Origin: a virus
Virus record (IMG/VR): IMGVR_UViG_3300027857_000022
Location: 1 to 55,055 of that record
Length of the DNA stretch: 55,055 nt
Direction: 5' to 3' (one strand)
Shown: positions 26,267 to 48,116 of the stretch, in pieces
Layout of the letters: each line of letters opens with the position of its first letter
Position numbering within the stretch: the stretch's first letter is position 1
Program-made: the position numbers and the translations under genes
The notes under the pieces: model-generated
Database searches by the model: none
Told to the model about the DNA's origin: nothing
Seen by the model: only the letters and a program-made list of their open reading frames with translations

Positions 26267-26470
26267 TCAAGCTTGTTTCGGTGGCATTTCCACTGGTGTG
26301 GGCTGCGGACCTGTGAGTTGATTGCTATACCCAAACCAGTGCCCCACAGCTAATCCTGCCATGATGAGAGCTGCCTCGTGTGTTCCTTGGTCTTGTGTGA
26401 AGACGAGTAGGATTCCACAAAAGATCAGTGTGGTGATCGTCACTGCAAGATAGACAAATGTTGTGTTCAT
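26267..26470 (-). CDS. small two-helix membrane protein, holin-like
   Basis: A 67-residue protein with two membrane helices (TFVYLAVTITTLIFCGILLVF at 4-24; AALIMAGLAVGHWFGY at 33-48) and a short Pro-rich tail. This size and topology is typical of class II holins. TAGGAGAAAATATTC precedes the ATG, which overlaps the DUF1003 stop. It lies beside another holin-like gene (27732), so one may be an antiholin. Confidence 0.55.
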   Translation of the reverse strand: MNTTFVYLAVTITTLIFCGILLVFTQDQGTHEAALIMAGLAVGHWFGYSNQLTGPQPTPVEMPPKQA

Positions 26471-26931
26471 GAATATTTTCTCCTATTAGAACGTTGGATA
26501 AGATCAATGAGCATTTTCGTCTGCTTGAGCAGCTCCTCATCTTGCGCTTCCAAATGATGCATGATTTGCAAGATATCTTCAAATGTCTTATTCGTTGTAT
26601 TGAATGACTCTTCTGCCTGTAACTCAGCTTTCCGGCTGAGTACATTCTGGCCGACTGAGAGCACCGGAAGAGCCCAAAGCTGCACAAGATTACTTAGAAA
26701 CAATAAGAAGGTAAATGGGTATGGATCGCTTTTGAATCTCCAAATGCCAAAGGATGCTAATGCCATCCATAAAAGCATCCAAGCAACTAAGATGTAAAAT
26801 GCTTGCATGCTTCCAAATCCCTTCGTGATCATCACAGCTACCCGCTGATTGAAGCCAGTTTGCTCAGCTGCATGTAAATGGTTCACGTTCTGCGGCTTAT
26901 GTAGATGAGGATGATGCTCAAATAATGCCAT
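26467..26931 (-). CDS. DUF1003-family membrane protein
   Basis: A 154-residue protein: a His-rich head (FEHHPHLHKPQNVNHLHAAEQTG), FNQRVAVMITKGFGSMQAFYILVAWMLLWM, FKSDPYPFTFLLFLSNLVQLWALPVLSVGQNVLSRKAELQAEE, then a helical tail. FGSxxF, the PYPFxFLxxLSN block and the P-x-L-x-x-GQN motif match DUF1003, usually a chromosomal membrane family of unknown function often found near ion-transport genes. It is unusual in a phage. It lies next to the VIT-type transporter, so the pair may have been acquired together. Confidence 0.8.
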   Translation of the reverse strand: MALFEHHPHLHKPQNVNHLHAAEQTGFNQRVAVMITKGFGSMQAFYILVAWMLLWMALASFGIWRFKSDPYPFTFLLFLSNLVQLWALPVLSVGQNVLSRKAELQAEESFNTTNKTFEDILQIMHHLEAQDEELLKQTKMLIDLIQRSNRRKYS

Positions 26932-26941
26932 AGCACATCTC

Positions 26942-27388
26942 CTAATGTAATGCTACGCCAATAAGAACTCCTGCAAGCGTTCCTGCAGTCACAATGGCGA
27001 GAAAGAAGAGGGCAGATCGTAATGCGCCGCCCGCCTCGTTGTCATAGCGTGCCTTGATCCATCCAAAGAGAAGTGCGACGAGGGCCGTGCACGCGTAGCT
27101 CCACCACTGGACATAGGACAAATGCAGAACAACAGGCAGAAGAGGCGCAAGCCCACCGATGAGGAACGCACCTCCTGTCGAGAGCCCAGCCATCCACTCG
27201 TTTTGGTCGGCCACAGAACGCGCCGCTGCATATCCGCCTAGCCCCATGCTGATTGCAGAGGCAGCTACAACCCCGATCATGGTCGAGAGCAAGTGGCTTC
27301 CAACAACCCCGCTTACCGTCATGATCGTAACTAATGTCGTCACCAGCCCGTCATCAAGGCCCAGCACAACACCGCGTAACCATTTCAT
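26942..27388 (-). CDS. VIT1/CCC1-family transporter, minimal form
   Basis: A 148-residue membrane protein. VVLGLDDGLVTTLVTIMTVSGVVG and VVAASAISMGLGGYAAARSVADQ match the first two helices of VIT1/CCC1 iron-manganese carriers, and TGGAFLIGGLAPLLPVVL plus GWIKARYDN...FFLAIVTAGTLAGVLIG match the last helices. The cytoplasmic metal-binding domain usually found between helices two and three is absent, giving a short form. It overlaps the gene before it by four bases within the lysis cassette. Either it carries metal ions or its pore helices serve lysis. Confidence 0.85.
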   Translation of the reverse strand: MKWLRGVVLGLDDGLVTTLVTIMTVSGVVGSHLLSTMIGVVAASAISMGLGGYAAARSVADQNEWMAGLSTGGAFLIGGLAPLLPVVLHLSYVQWWSYACTALVALLFGWIKARYDNEAGGALRSALFFLAIVTAGTLAGVLIGVALH

Positions 27389-41113: not shown

Positions 41114-42406
41114 CTAAAGTGATGTGATTAAGTTCGTAACGGTAACTTTTTGGGACTGACCACCTGAGCCCCAAGCCGGATCTTCGACAATATTGGCCTC
41201 CCATTCGGTTGCGAATACACCTTGCTCATCTTTGAAGTCTGTTGGTTTGTTGAGCTTGCAGGCCATATCATGCTGGAAGATATTATTGACGACTTGTGAG
41301 GTGAGTGAGGCATTGGCTGGTGTGCCAAGACCTGTGAACGTCCCGGTCAATGCATTAGTGGAATTGGCAAGAGCCCCGGTAAAGGTAACGGTGTATGGTC
41401 CACCTGCGCTTCCTGAGACGGTCACATTGCCGGTACCAATGGTTGAGAGTGCAATAAGCGCAGATTGCACAGTAGCAGATGTGGCATTATATGCAATATT
41501 TGTGGTTGTCTGCCCATTATATGTCAATGTGAAGTTACCACTCGACTGCGTACCAAGTGTGACGAGATACGTGTTATCGATGATATTTCCTTGAGCCAGC
41601 ACGCGGATATAGACCGTGTTGCCTTGCTGCAAATTGACCTGCTGCGCGGCCAGGCCCGTCGCATCTGCCTCAACGAGGAACTTCAACGTTGTCTTGGGCA
41701 CAGTATCGATATGCGCGGTATAAGATAGATTAGCGCGATTGAGTGGATAGAACGCTGCATACACGGCATCAAAAGCATAATCAAGGCTAAAACAGCGGGT
41801 GAGCTGGGTCGTGCCAATATTGGCAGAAGAGCTGTCTAGATAGACATTGAAGAATTTGCCGACCACAGGCGCAAGAGCAACGGCTGTTGGGGAGCCCGTG
41901 AGCGTGATGCCATCGCTCATGATCTGCCCAAAGCCTTTACCCGATACAGTGAATGGTGTTTTACGTGTGCCCTTGTAACCAAAGTTGTTGAGGATGCCAT
42001 ACGAGAAAGAACGGGCACGCACACTATCCCCTTGTTGGATGGTATAGGTCTGAGGGACGATGGAGCCTGTTGTCGGCGGCGTAAAGACCCAGTCTTTAGC
42101 GGTTGTCGATGTGCCGTGAGCTGCTGCTGAGACGGAGCCCATGGTTGAGGCTAGCAGATAGAGCACGCCATTGAAGTCGAGATCCCCATCAACAGTAATG
42201 TTGCTCTCTTCAAAGTTCTCTTCCTGGATCGTGTCGTATTTGTGCCCGACAGGCCGAAAGAACGACACGTTCGGCATAATACCGAAGACCCAGTTAAAGC
42301 AATTCAGTAATTTACCAGCAGGTACAGCAGTGCCTAAAGCAGATGTGCTTTCGGCTCCTATTTGCACACGTTGGTTTATATAACTTACTTCAGGTGTCCA
42401 TGTCAT
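41114..42406 (-). CDS. major tail tube protein with Ig-like insertion
   Basis: A 430-residue tail protein. The first 270 residues are tube-like (GAESTSALGTAVPAGKLLNCFNWVFGI, EENFEESNITVDGDLDFNGVLYLLASTMGS, GFGQIMSDGITLTG). Residues about 285-370 (FTLTYNGQTTTNIAYNATSATVQSALIALSTIGTGNVTVSGSAGGPYTVTFTGALANS) form a separate beta domain of a type often seen on virion surfaces. The ending QGVFATEWEANIVEDPAWGSGGQ returns to the tube fold. The inserted domain probably projects from the tail. GGAGGTGATTAA precedes the ATG. Confidence 0.85.
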   Translation of the reverse strand: MTWTPEVSYINQRVQIGAESTSALGTAVPAGKLLNCFNWVFGIMPNVSFFRPVGHKYDTIQEENFEESNITVDGDLDFNGVLYLLASTMGSVSAAAHGTSTTAKDWVFTPPTTGSIVPQTYTIQQGDSVRARSFSYGILNNFGYKGTRKTPFTVSGKGFGQIMSDGITLTGSPTAVALAPVVGKFFNVYLDSSSANIGTTQLTRCFSLDYAFDAVYAAFYPLNRANLSYTAHIDTVPKTTLKFLVEADATGLAAQQVNLQQGNTVYIRVLAQGNIIDNTYLVTLGTQSSGNFTLTYNGQTTTNIAYNATSATVQSALIALSTIGTGNVTVSGSAGGPYTVTFTGALANSTNALTGTFTGLGTPANASLTSQVVNNIFQHDMACKLNKPTDFKDEQGVFATEWEANIVEDPAWGSGGQSQKVTVTNLITSL

Positions 42407-42424: not shown

Positions 42425-42883
42425 CTAATATACTTGTCCTAGTTCCATACGATACAACCCGCCAATGTTCGTCCACAGCTCTCCTGTCACAAGTTCGTCT
42501 ACCTCTAGCGGCGAATCCCGATAGCAAGAGTAAAGATAGCCCTGTGTCACGCCACCAATGACAATCCCGATAGCACCAGGCGGAAGGCTTGGCGGGCTGC
42601 CAAGCAATGCATCGATACGAGCAGCAGCAGCAGCAAGCTGAGATGTGTTATTTGCTGGTCCCACGACCTTGACCTGGAATACCAGATTTGTGAGCACACG
42701 GAAGGCATTCATGGTCACCGTGTCGATACCCGTATGAAAAGCCGTGATGATGTACGGGATGGCTGTGTTGGGCTGCGCAAGCGCACGGTTCACGCCCCCA
42801 GGTGCAAGGCTTGCCAGGGTTGCATCATTGCCCAGAGTGTTCTGAAGGTAGGCGTAACCCAAAAAAACTTCATGCCCAGCCAT
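42425..42883 (-). CDS. tail completion protein, DUF3168-like
   Basis: A 152-residue protein (YLQNTLGNDATLASLAPGGVNRALAQPNTAIPYIITAF, AFRVLTNLVFQVKVVGPANNTSQLAAAAARIDALL, GYLYSCYRDSPLEVDELVTGELWTNIGGLYRMEL). The strand-helix layout matches tail-terminator proteins of the DUF3168/gpU type, which cap the tail and join it to the head. It lies just before the tail tube gene. Confidence 0.75.
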   Translation of the reverse strand: MAGHEVFLGYAYLQNTLGNDATLASLAPGGVNRALAQPNTAIPYIITAFHTGIDTVTMNAFRVLTNLVFQVKVVGPANNTSQLAAAAARIDALLGSPPSLPPGAIGIVIGGVTQGYLYSCYRDSPLEVDELVTGELWTNIGGLYRMELGQVY

Positions 42884-43278
42884 CAGATCGCACCTCGTAG
42901 CTTGTCCTCTAAGCTGCTCATTGCATCGATGAAAGGCTGCCTATTTGCCTCAATCGCTGGATAGAAATATGGTTGTGCTGGCATACGCCTAGTACCCATC
43001 TCGACATAAATACCATAATTCGCCCCAACTGCCACATATGCCTCATACTGGTTTGGTGGTTGTTTGATCAATGGAAAGAAGCCTTTGCCTCGCGTCTTGT
43101 CATGCCGATCATGGCTTGTGTAGGTCCTTTCATAGATGGAAGCTTGCAAAGCGCCTGTGTCGACTGGAGCATTCTCAGCAGCTTGAGCTTCGATATCAAA
43201 TGCTGTTTTCGTTACCACTCGTGCAATAGCCGATGCAAGCGCATTAGCAAGTGCATTCAAATGATTGAAGTCCTCCAT
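42883..43278 (-). CDS. HK97 gp10-like head-tail connector
   Basis: A 131-residue protein: FDIEAQAAENAPVDTGALQASIYER, NQYEAYVAVGANYGIYVEMGTRRMPAQPYFYPAIEANRQPF. The AP-DTGALxxSI and YxxYVExGTxxMxAQPxxxPAI motifs define the HK97 gp10 family. The ATG at 43278 overlaps the previous stop; the frame upstream is antisense to the neighbouring gene and not used. Confidence 0.88.
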   Translation of the reverse strand: MEDFNHLNALANALASAIARVVTKTAFDIEAQAAENAPVDTGALQASIYERTYTSHDRHDKTRGKGFFPLIKQPPNQYEAYVAVGANYGIYVEMGTRRMPAQPYFYPAIEANRQPFIDAMSSLEDKLRGAI

Positions 43279-43643
43279 TAGAGTATCTCCGTAGCAATAA
43301 CGCTCAATAATGCATGATACGAGCGTGGATCTAAGATAACCTGCACAACCAGCGTTTGTGCACCGATCAGCAAATGATCTTGATGCTCGACATTTGTTCC
43401 AATAGGTAATCTGACATGCCAAGCTGCTAAGCTTCCGATCAGATAGTCATAGTTGGCAAGCTGGCCTGCTGTGGGCTCCGTCATGCCTGCTACCGTCGTC
43501 GCTACCGTGCTGAAGATTTCCGTCTCCGATCCATACGCGTCTTTTGTCGGCGTCTTGCGCTTAATCACACAAGGTTGGTCGCAAGCAGCAAACTCGACAT
43601 CATATTGTATGTGCGCTAATTCGGATGACGAGATTGGGAGCAT
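43278..43643 (-). CDS. head-tail stopper/closure-like protein
   Basis: A 121-residue protein (ACDQPCVIKRKTPTKDAYGSETEIFSTVATTVAGMTEP, AAWHVRLPIGTNVEHQDHLLIGAQTLVVQVILDPRSYHAL). The beta barrel with LP-GT-V-x-xD-L-IG-x-x-xVV follows head-closure proteins of the SPP1 gp16/HK97 gp9 type. It overlaps the gp10-like start. Its position between connector and gp10 is canonical. Confidence 0.75.
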   Translation of the reverse strand: MLPISSSELAHIQYDVEFAACDQPCVIKRKTPTKDAYGSETEIFSTVATTVAGMTEPTAGQLANYDYLIGSLAAWHVRLPIGTNVEHQDHLLIGAQTLVVQVILDPRSYHALLSVIATEIL

Positions 43644-43650
43644 TTCTTCC

Positions 43651-43797
43651 TCACTTGTGCTTATGATGTACAGTATGATGATGATGCGCTACATGATGGT
43701 GATGTTTCACATGATGGTGATGTTTCACATGATGATGATGCTTGACATGGTGTTTCACGTGAGCATGATGGTGATGTGCTACATGATGTACTGCCAT
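43651..43797 (-). CDS. poly-histidine protein
   Basis: A 48-residue protein with 28 His. It starts MAVHHVAHHHHAHVKHHVK and continues with three KHHHHV units, a VAHHHH unit and a VHHKHK end. GGAGGAGTAACAC is a strong ribosome site, it is the only sensible frame, and it fits the 157-base gap between two connector-region genes. Val/Lys/Ala are the only other common residues. It should bind Ni, Zn, Co or Cu strongly and be protonated at low pH. No family is known to me. Confidence 0.7.
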   Translation of the reverse strand: MAVHHVAHHHHAHVKHHVKHHHHVKHHHHVKHHHHVAHHHHTVHHKHK

Positions 43798-43800
43798 GTG

Positions 43801-44082
43801 TTACTCCTCCGGAAAGTGCCAGGTACCAGGCTTTTTTTCAGCATCATGCTCTACCTGTGCAGCATCAAAATGGCCCCAAGCAAAACCAGGATCGAATACG
43901 CGCAAATTAACCGCTGGTCGATCCGCAAAGACAACCATAACCACAGCATCTAGCTCTGCAAATGGTTCACTGCCTGCCCAATTATCGACATAATGCACTT
44001 TATCTCCGAACTCAGGCTTCCTCTGAGGAGCTACAACAGCGGGCATATCATCTATTGCAGATTCTTCACTGAAATCGTTCAT
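43801..44082 (-). CDS. connector-region hypothetical protein
   Basis: A 93-residue acidic protein (EFGDKVHYVDNWAGSEPFAELDAVVMVVFADRPAVNLRVFDPGFAWGHFDAAQVEHDAEKKPGTWHFPEE). The strand pattern with a GTWHFPE ending is common in small proteins next to siphophage connectors. AAAGGAGC precedes the ATG, which touches the previous stop. It is probably a virion or assembly accessory. Confidence 0.6.
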   Translation of the reverse strand: MNDFSEESAIDDMPAVVAPQRKPEFGDKVHYVDNWAGSEPFAELDAVVMVVFADRPAVNLRVFDPGFAWGHFDAAQVEHDAEKKPGTWHFPEE

Positions 44083-44750
44083 TATGCTCCTTTGACTATA
44101 TCGTCACTATCTAAGAGCCTCATCTTCCGTGCAGTGATCTCAGTCTGGACATCATCGCGAACCATCTTCACGACCCTCGGTTTGGCCTTACGCCTGTACT
44201 GCTCGGCTAACGTCAGCTTGGCCGTCATCAGCTGGGAACGTCGGAGATTCTGCCCGTCCACTGCAATGTCATAGGCAGAGGAGAGCGCCGCACCCCAGAA
44301 CTCAAGCAAGTCAGCAGATGCGAGATAGAGGTCATGCACACGTCCAGTAATGAAAACTGGAGGATACTGACCTGGAACCGTTGGTGATGTAAATTCCGTT
44401 GATGACGATTCAAACCAGAAATGCCCATTGATGAAATCACTCTCTGTGGGCGTGAGCACAATCCATGCTGCATGAGTTGATGTATTTACACCTTCGAGTA
44501 CGGCATCTGATTCAAACCACTGAAAACGCGAAAAATACTCGATAAAGATCACTGATGGCTGGTTATTCGTAGAAGCTGTGTTAATGATCGTCGGTGCTAT
44601 TCGCATAGGTTCGTACCGCACAAAATCCATATACTGATCACACGTATCTTGTATATCTTGATCCGCAAAGAACTGGCTTGCTCCTGATAGATCTTGAATC
44701 ATGAATCGTACACGTGAGATAATTTGTGACATACTTGCACGAACTGCCAT
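44082..44750 (-). CDS. head-tail adaptor protein
   Basis: A 222-residue protein: MSQIISRVRFMIQDLSGASQFFADQDIQDTCDQYMDFVRYEPM, then a beta part and a long helical end (LYLASADLLEFWGAALSSAYDIAVDGQNLRRSQLMTAKLTLAEQYRRKAK). The helical ring-forming layout (IISRVRxMIxD ... DIQDTxDxYxxxV) fits gp6/gp15-type adaptors that dock on the portal. AGGAGCGG precedes the ATG. Confidence 0.75.
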   Translation of the reverse strand: MAVRASMSQIISRVRFMIQDLSGASQFFADQDIQDTCDQYMDFVRYEPMRIAPTIINTASTNNQPSVIFIEYFSRFQWFESDAVLEGVNTSTHAAWIVLTPTESDFINGHFWFESSSTEFTSPTVPGQYPPVFITGRVHDLYLASADLLEFWGAALSSAYDIAVDGQNLRRSQLMTAKLTLAEQYRRKAKPRVVKMVRDDVQTEITARKMRLLDSDDIVKGA

Positions 44751-45432: not shown

Positions 45433-45852
45433 TTAGTAGTTGTTCTTCGGCAATTGGAACACGGTTAAAACGCCTGTTAAGCCAGTTCCGAAGTCTAGGT
45501 TGACCGAACCATCCAATTGTGCAAATCGCGCACTTTCAAGAGGTCCGACTATGCATCCACCTGATGCTGTGTGACAGACGACGGTCAAGTCTCCGATGCC
45601 AGATCGGAACGCGGGGCCAGGAGTAGCACCTCCACCAACCCCTGCGCGAACAATGACGTTCTTATCAGAACCTGCTGTATTAGTGATGTAAAGGAAGGTA
45701 TCACGCTCATTTGGCCCCGATGGGATTGCACTCGTTGATATCGGGATATTGACGCCGTTCGTGACCAGCGTGCTATTAATCGTAGTACCTGCTGGTATGT
45801 CGATGCCACCATTGGCAGTGAGAGCCGTTGGGCTTACGCTTGTGCGTGCCAT
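45433..45852 (-). CDS. head decoration-like protein
   Basis: A 139-residue protein: MARTSVSPTALTANGGIDIPAGTTI, DTFLYITNTAGSDKNVIVRAGVGGG, CIVGPLESARFAQLDGSVNLDFGTGLTGVLTVFQLPK. This beta-rich pattern recurs beside capsid genes in many siphophages and fits a capsid-surface decoration protein. It lies directly after the capsid gene. AAGGAGG precedes the ATG. Confidence 0.7.
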   Translation of the reverse strand: MARTSVSPTALTANGGIDIPAGTTINSTLVTNGVNIPISTSAIPSGPNERDTFLYITNTAGSDKNVIVRAGVGGGATPGPAFRSGIGDLTVVCHTASGGCIVGPLESARFAQLDGSVNLDFGTGLTGVLTVFQLPKNNY

Positions 45853-45864
45853 GATGCTTCCTCC

Positions 45865-46785
45865 TTATGGATGCTGTAGGTATGCAGCACACAGCGCATA
45901 CGGGCGGACAGTTTTCGCTCCGTAGAGCACAAGAGATTTCACGGCATCAGAGAAGCGGTATGGCGGTCGGTAGGCTTCCGTCTCGCTCAGACCTTCTGCT
46001 TTTGTCAGGGCCATTGGATGTCCTGCTAGGATCACGTCCTGTGAACCAGCAGCTCCTGTTGTGCCACCAAGATGGACAGCATTCAGGCTCTCGTAGACAT
46101 CGAAGCCTTCGATCTTGCCCAAGTAGGCATCGCTACTCATACCAGCGGAGGCATCAAGCTTTCCTGACAGGATGGTTTGACGGCCTGCATCGGTATTGAA
46201 GCTGGTGAAGCGGATGTCCTGGGTAAGATACGTTTTGATCCACGGAGGCACAACACACCAGCGCCCCGACTTGGGAACGGCTTGCTCAGTCAACTTCTGA
46301 CCCATCTGCACGATATAGTCGTAGGCGGTCGTGCCCGCGCCGACATTTGTGCTGGTAGGAACTGAGATAGTTTGGAAGCTGCTAGAGGAACCGATGAGGT
46401 TGGTTGCATCTGTATAGAAACCCGCGTAGTATTGATCCATCGTGAGCGCGAGCTTGTAGCCCGCCCACGAGATCATCTCTGCGTAGGCATCAGGATGTGC
46501 TTGTGCACGATCTACATCATCTATCGCGACGTTATAGTATTTCGCCTGTGATATAGTGAGCATTGTTTGAGCATCTGTCATGCTCTGCGGTGCGTTGATA
46601 TCGGTGTCTTTGGTGTAGGAGTATACAGTCACATCACCTATTGCATTAATTCTAACTGTATCCCCCATTTGCTTCAGTTCCCCTTCATAATCGCCGTTGA
46701 AGAGATTGCCGAAGACGAGGTTTACTCGTAGAGCAGCAAGGATTGTATCTGCCCATATTTGAGGTATAAACGAGTTGAGAGACAT
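45865..46785 (-). CDS. major capsid protein, P22-coat-like HK97 fold
   Basis: A 306-residue protein: FIPQIWADTILAALRVNLVFGNLFNGDYEGELKQMGDTVRINAIGDVTVYSYTKDTDI, AKYYNVAIDDVDRAQAHPDAYAEMISWAGYKLALTMDQYY, then YKTKGVPP-like loops and ending RPYALCAAYLQHP. The opening block (F-P-IWxxxIL, YEGE, GDTVRIN) follows P22-coat-type HK97-fold capsids. It has no fused protease; it follows scaffold and precedes decoration. TAGGAGATTTGA precedes the ATG. Confidence 0.9.
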   Translation of the reverse strand: MSLNSFIPQIWADTILAALRVNLVFGNLFNGDYEGELKQMGDTVRINAIGDVTVYSYTKDTDINAPQSMTDAQTMLTISQAKYYNVAIDDVDRAQAHPDAYAEMISWAGYKLALTMDQYYAGFYTDATNLIGSSSSFQTISVPTSTNVGAGTTAYDYIVQMGQKLTEQAVPKSGRWCVVPPWIKTYLTQDIRFTSFNTDAGRQTILSGKLDASAGMSSDAYLGKIEGFDVYESLNAVHLGGTTGAAGSQDVILAGHPMALTKAEGLSETEAYRPPYRFSDAVKSLVLYGAKTVRPYALCAAYLQHP

Positions 46786-47924: not shown

Positions 47925-48116
47925 TTATGCTCCTTTTACTTTCTTTACACTATGATGCGCTACTTTCTGGACAGGCTTTGCTGTGTATATTGCTGTCTTC
48001 TGGTTCGTAGCTTTAGCCTTTGCCACTGGTGCCTTGTGCGGCTTGGGTACAGACACGTGAGGCGTCTTGACATGCGGAGTCGTGACGGATGCACCCGACT
48101 TCTTATGCCAGGTCAT
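47925..48116 (-). CDS. basic Lys/His/Pro-repeat protein
   Basis: A 63-residue protein (MTWHKKSGASVTTPHVKTPHVSVPKPHKAPVAKAKA then KTAIYTAKPVQKVAHHSVKKVKGA). TPHV and PH-K repeats give a strongly positive chain. GAGGAGGCAAATC precedes the ATG. It lies between the morphogenesis and scaffold genes. It could coat packaged DNA or, with the poly-His protein, contribute metal or pH-sensitive contacts; both are inference. Confidence 0.6.
   Translation of the reverse strand: MTWHKKSGASVTTPHVKTPHVSVPKPHKAPVAKAKATNQKTAIYTAKPVQKVAHHSVKKVKGA

Follow-up and report, generated by a model that had tools for sequence, protein, structure and literature searches.

Arrays of the HH, HHxHH and HHHH types are established strong binders of Ni, Zn, Cu, and Co, as exploited in metal-affinity chemistry. 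To our knowledge, natural proteins in which half or more of the residues are His are rare. Hpn and Hpn-2 (Hpn-like) of Helicobacter are small nickel-binding proteins composed of about half His, with CC motifs in Hpn and a Gln-rich tail in Hpn-2 (PMC4671568). In phages, HxH motifs of tail fibres (T4 gp37; Alteromonas phage R22Y) have been demonstrated or proposed to carry iron (PMC11705849). Hpn-type His-rich metal peptides and patchily distributed phage accessory genes are both already known. The novelty of the locus described here is a poly-His accessory gene that recurs at one neck-gene junction and that is undescribed in the libraries and open-access papers searched.

The window, i.e. the entire stretch of 55,055 nucleotides that was analyzed, is a virus record (IMGVR_UViG_3300027857_000022). 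The poly-His ORF (43651..43797, minus strand) encodes, from ATG to TGA, a 48-residue product, MAVHHVAHHHHAHVKHHVKHHHHVKHHHHVKHHHHVAHHHHTVHHKHK, which contains 28 His, five HHHH blocks, 0 acidic residues, and 0 Cys. The start context is CCGGAGGAGTAACAC-ATG, in which a Shine-Dalgarno-like GGAGGAG (43801..43810, minus strand) overlies the final codons of the gene upstream. The stop codon of the latter gene (43801-43803) is followed after 3 nt by the poly-His ATG, and the poly-His stop is separated by 7 nt from the next ATG (43643). The first-pass annotation, which had described 28 His out of 48 residues in HHHH blocks, a strong ribosome site, and an exact fit between genes, was borne out in these respects. 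Part of the ORF consists of an 18-bp tandem repeat (43675..43749, minus strand; 4.2 units, 85% match) coding for HHHHVK-type units, suggesting that the gene of the window grew partly by repeat duplication.

The late genes of the window are located on the minus strand in the order portal, capsid, decoration, adaptor, PGTWH(W/F)P, poly-His, and head closure. The portal matched SPP1_portal (2.7e-29) and the major capsid protein (45865..46785, minus strand), which was the query used to find relatives, matched PHROG 267 (E 2e-57). A putative head decoration gene (45433-45852) lies between the capsid and adaptor genes. The putative head-tail adaptor (44082..44750, minus strand), which forms the upstream border of the slot and is conserved across relatives (alignment A1), was named by position only, as its structure model was weak and had no significant structural match. 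The slot also contains the gene of a small PGTWH(W/F)P protein (43801..44082, minus strand), and about 10 further loci likewise carry it between their adaptor and head-closure genes. The downstream gene (43278..43643, minus strand), which always directly follows the His-rich ORF, is predicted to have an SPP1 gp16-type head-closure (stopper) fold: its AlphaFold model (pLDDT 82.6) matched chain 7z4w_1 of the SPP1 gp6/gp15/gp16 connector (Foldseek, E 5e-5, prob 1.00) and many other phage stopper proteins. The next gene (42883..43287, minus strand) encodes a tail completion / Neck1 protein (PHROG 5, E 5e-21). Thus, the head-tail connector setting proposed in the first-pass annotation is confirmed downstream, by the fold of one gene and the PHROG 5 match of the next; upstream, the adaptor is placed by position only.

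Several further features were observed in the window and its relatives. A PGTWHWP-like motif ends the small protein family present in the slots of L049, L050, L059, L060, L069, L084, L138, L307, L365, and the window (43801-44082); its gene is located just 5' of the H-rich gene in the window and in L307. The major tail protein of the window (41114-42406, minus strand) contains an additional domain (~95 residues, at positions ~278-372) that is missing in several relatives and corresponds to the stretch matching tail-protein PHROGs. Among the relatives, a papain-family cysteine protease gene (PF00112, 1.6e-11) lies directly 3' of the head-closure gene in L013 (8828-9577), L005 (3846-5511) has the putative head decoration gene, homologous to that of the window, in four diverged copies arranged in tandem, and a group I intron (Rfam RF00028, 73 bits, E 1.4e-18) is located within the major capsid protein gene of L019 (6096-6311).

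The phage collection contained no DNA-level relative of the window and no match to the adaptor, and the capsid protein found matches there at no more than about 40%. No prophage emerged when bacterial genomes were scanned twice using the capsid protein and the adaptor as queries. The DnaB and FtsK-like proteins provided no clue to the host, and the window contains no tRNA.

Searches with the capsid protein identified 21 viral contigs among the matches listed, and profile searches that started from alignments of the adaptor and of the capsid protein widened this set, adding L029, L071, and L300. His-rich ORFs were present in the same slot in three capsid-found relatives, L006 (31 His in 65 residues), L016 (39/60), and L017 (19/40), and in the three profile-found loci L029 (36/64), L071 (28/58), and L300 (32/132), the last being also rich in K/R. 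The first-pass annotation had proposed a search for such frames in related phages, a lack of conserved frame or histidines counting against it. On this point it stands: His-rich frames occur at this position in six further viral contigs, and three of these are close relatives according to the major capsid protein. The slot was then surveyed in 132 distinct adaptor proteins with a downstream head-closure gene, among the matches listed, the contigs of which are in many cases fragmentary. It was empty in 102 pairs and strongly His-rich in seven, including the window, again among the matches listed. The seven His-rich ORFs (19-39 His in 40-132 residues) all occupy the last position in the slot, directly before head closure, with a gap of -1 to 12 nt. 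The remaining slots contain other stretches or genes, such as the PGTWH(W/F)P family, a CxxC protein (L077; in L029, the CxxC gene precedes the His ORF), a LAGLIDADG endonuclease (L066), and DUF3310 (L346). Searching further close relatives of the carriers did not reveal any new carrier beyond the known loci.

The His-richness of the ORF is far beyond chance. The best 30-residue segments of the seven slot ORFs contain 14, 18, 18, 20, 21, 21, and 22 His, versus 9 or fewer in each of the remaining ORFs on the same strand (4,551 in total, of at least 30 residues, in the 132 loci listed, 902 kb). In the whole contigs of 16 relatives, the pattern HHxHHxHH, which misses some members, matched only L006 and L071, in both cases at the slot. 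The pattern HHxHHxHHxH had many matches in the whole collection; among those listed, L006 was the only member of the slot family and most of the others appeared by eye to be shadow frames of repeats.

Six members qualify as poly-His, with 47-65% His in 40-65 residues, 0-1 acidic residue, 0 Cys, and few hydrophobic residues. Cys is absent from all seven His-rich members, and the composition common to the carriers is His-rich with A/K/V/T/P and almost no acidic residues. The calculated net charge of the six poly-His peptides is +2 to +8 at pH 7.5, +17 to +23 at pH 6, and +25 to +38 at pH 5. Metal binding and pH-dependent charge are both expected from this composition. The slot peptides of L299, L307, and L300 are less His-rich (10% in L299 and 24% in L300) and richer in Lys/Arg. 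Neither the window copy nor the six other His-rich members matched Pfam or PHROG entries at an E value of 0.1, and no phage poly-His protein is described in the open-access literature searched. The absence of any known similar phage family, noted in the first-pass annotation, holds for these sources.

Production of a protein is supported by several observations. When the six poly-His genes were read in six frames, only the His frame combined start and stop codons with a well-placed ribosome site at this position in every gene. The CAT:CAC ratios were 22:6, 20:11, 25:14, 14:5, 17:19, and 17:11, and switches between the two codons in neighboring His positions were close to the shuffled expectation. 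The mixed usage and near-shuffled switching indicate that the genes are not fresh triplet expansions. The sister phages L299 and L307 encode H/K-rich peptides likewise as the final slot gene ahead of head closure. Comparison of this pair, which differs in composition from the poly-His genes, gave dN 0.25, dS 0.86, and a dN/dS ratio of about 0.29 (48 aligned codons), as expected for purifying selection acting at the protein level on an H/K-rich slot peptide that is itself not poly-His.

The poly-His ORF is thus a real, apparently undescribed accessory gene. Its absence from 102 of the 132 slots listed implies that it is dispensable. On the adaptor trees, which were quickly built, contain many weak branches, and do not distinguish gain from loss, the carriers are scattered, requiring 6 changes for the seven carriers or 7 if L299 is counted, and L016 and L017 are the only sister carriers (SH-aLRT 99). 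This distribution indicates that the gene was repeatedly gained or lost. The gene resembles phage morons and late-operon accessory genes as a patchy extra gene at a fixed structural-gene junction, and shares with morons the absence from close relatives. It differs from them because the same composition recurs at one site and because a consensus scan, which a non-sigma70 promoter could escape, found neither a promoter nor a terminator flanking the gene on its strand.

Metal chelation was judged the most likely function because HH and HHHH arrays strongly bind Ni, Zn, Cu, and Co, as in Hpn; we place the chance that the peptide acts mainly as a transition-metal chelator, chemically similar to Hpn, a little short of even. 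This proposal includes four inferences: translation into a peptide, a disordered state, an affinity for metal, and the purpose that binding would serve. The accessory gene would be translated late, together with the head-closure gene, to produce a small, disordered, polycationic peptide. The peptide would chelate transition-metal ions (Ni, Zn, Cu, Co, or Fe), and chelation would serve metal buffering late in infection or metal loading on or near the neck. The six phage members resemble Hpn and Hpn-2 as small proteins, within the range of 40-80 residues, with about half or more His. In contrast to Hpn and Hpn-2, the phage peptides have neither Cys nor a Gln-rich tail, contain A/K/V/T/P spacers and almost no acidic residues, and are encoded in a phage late operon; the proposed likeness is a chemical one. 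The iron-carrying tail fibres of T4 and R22Y are likewise phage proteins with paired His, but they are folded and their HxH motifs are isolated, whereas the locus described here is a free gene for a small peptide, located at the neck-gene junction. The dispensability of the gene counts against the proposal.

The window also encodes a VIT1-family membrane protein (26942-27388, minus strand; PF01988, 3.4e-16) and a DUF1003 membrane protein (26470-26931, minus strand; 7.9e-15), which adjoin amidase and holin genes; VIT1 is additionally present in the L002 and L030 contigs. The VIT1-type protein of the window would lend weak, indirect support to the interaction with host metal stores suggested in the first-pass annotation. 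A link between VIT1 and poly-His as a general rule was rejected, since the two do not co-occur across relatives: two phages have VIT1 but a slot lacking poly-His, and the 51-kb contig of L017 had no VIT1 match.

The main alternative, which we regard as rather unlikely, is that the peptide is a pH-switched polycation, weakly charged in the cell and strongly positive below pH 6, that would bind nucleic acid, membrane, or the virion neck in a protamine-like or histatin-like role, metal binding being incidental. The steep rise in calculated charge from pH 7.5 to pH 5 and the near absence of acidic residues are in agreement with this possibility. Because this slot is also occupied by K/R/H-rich variants (L300 and L299/L307), the property in common could be positive charge and not metal affinity. 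Upstream from the capsid gene of the window lies another small ORF of low complexity that is rich in K/H and has a good ribosome site (47925-48116, minus strand; 63 residues); it fits the same reading. However, Lys and Arg would be better suited at neutral pH, and yet the poly-His members contain just 2-8 of these residues.

It is more doubtful still that the peptide is a minor structural part of the neck, or an assembly helper at the head-closure/adaptor interface, perhaps cross-linked by metal. The fixed site between adaptor and head closure, directly before the latter in seven of seven cases, is compatible with such a role, as is the presence of Asp66 in the head-closure protein of 6 of 7 carriers versus 7 of 125 others (Fisher 1.7e-6, a value that ignores kinship). 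However, the Asp66 association is not independent of kinship, since the one to three supported independent pairs are too few. Moreover, most close relatives lack the gene, so that the neck does not need it, and the slot also hosts unrelated genes (LAGLIDADG endonuclease, DUF3310).

A regulatory ORF analogous to the hisL leader peptide, in which runs of His codons would allow translation of the downstream gene to sense charged tRNA-His, is very improbable: it would account for the runs directly before a head-closure gene that they overlap or nearly touch, as in hisL, but the phage ORF is in the middle of an operon rather than at its start, is much longer (40-132 codons), and has recurrent A/K/V/T spacers. 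An RNA element or attenuator was rejected, as RNA folding of the region is unremarkable (z +0.83), no terminator-like site is present beside the gene, and the window had no Rfam match. Equally remote is a spurious ORF arising from repeat DNA with no protein made, since the partial 18-bp repeat of the window copy and the resemblance by eye of most other listed HHxHHxHHxH matches in viral contigs to repeat shadow frames are outweighed by conservation of slot and strand in seven diverged loci, the ribosome sites, the mixed synonymous His codons, and the purifying selection on the L299/L307 peptide.

It is possible, although unlikely in our estimate, that tailed phages have repeatedly evolved or exchanged a poly-His gene tied to head closure whose product loads transition metal on or near the virion neck or takes host metal late in infection. 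In that case, it would be the first Hpn-like metal protein known to us from a phage. That such a gene recurs at a single exact junction in phages that have diverged implies selection, late in infection, for a simple chemistry, metal binding or pH-dependent charge. Such selection would tie these phages to metal or acid biology and would open intact virions or lysates to direct probing by nickel-affinity capture.
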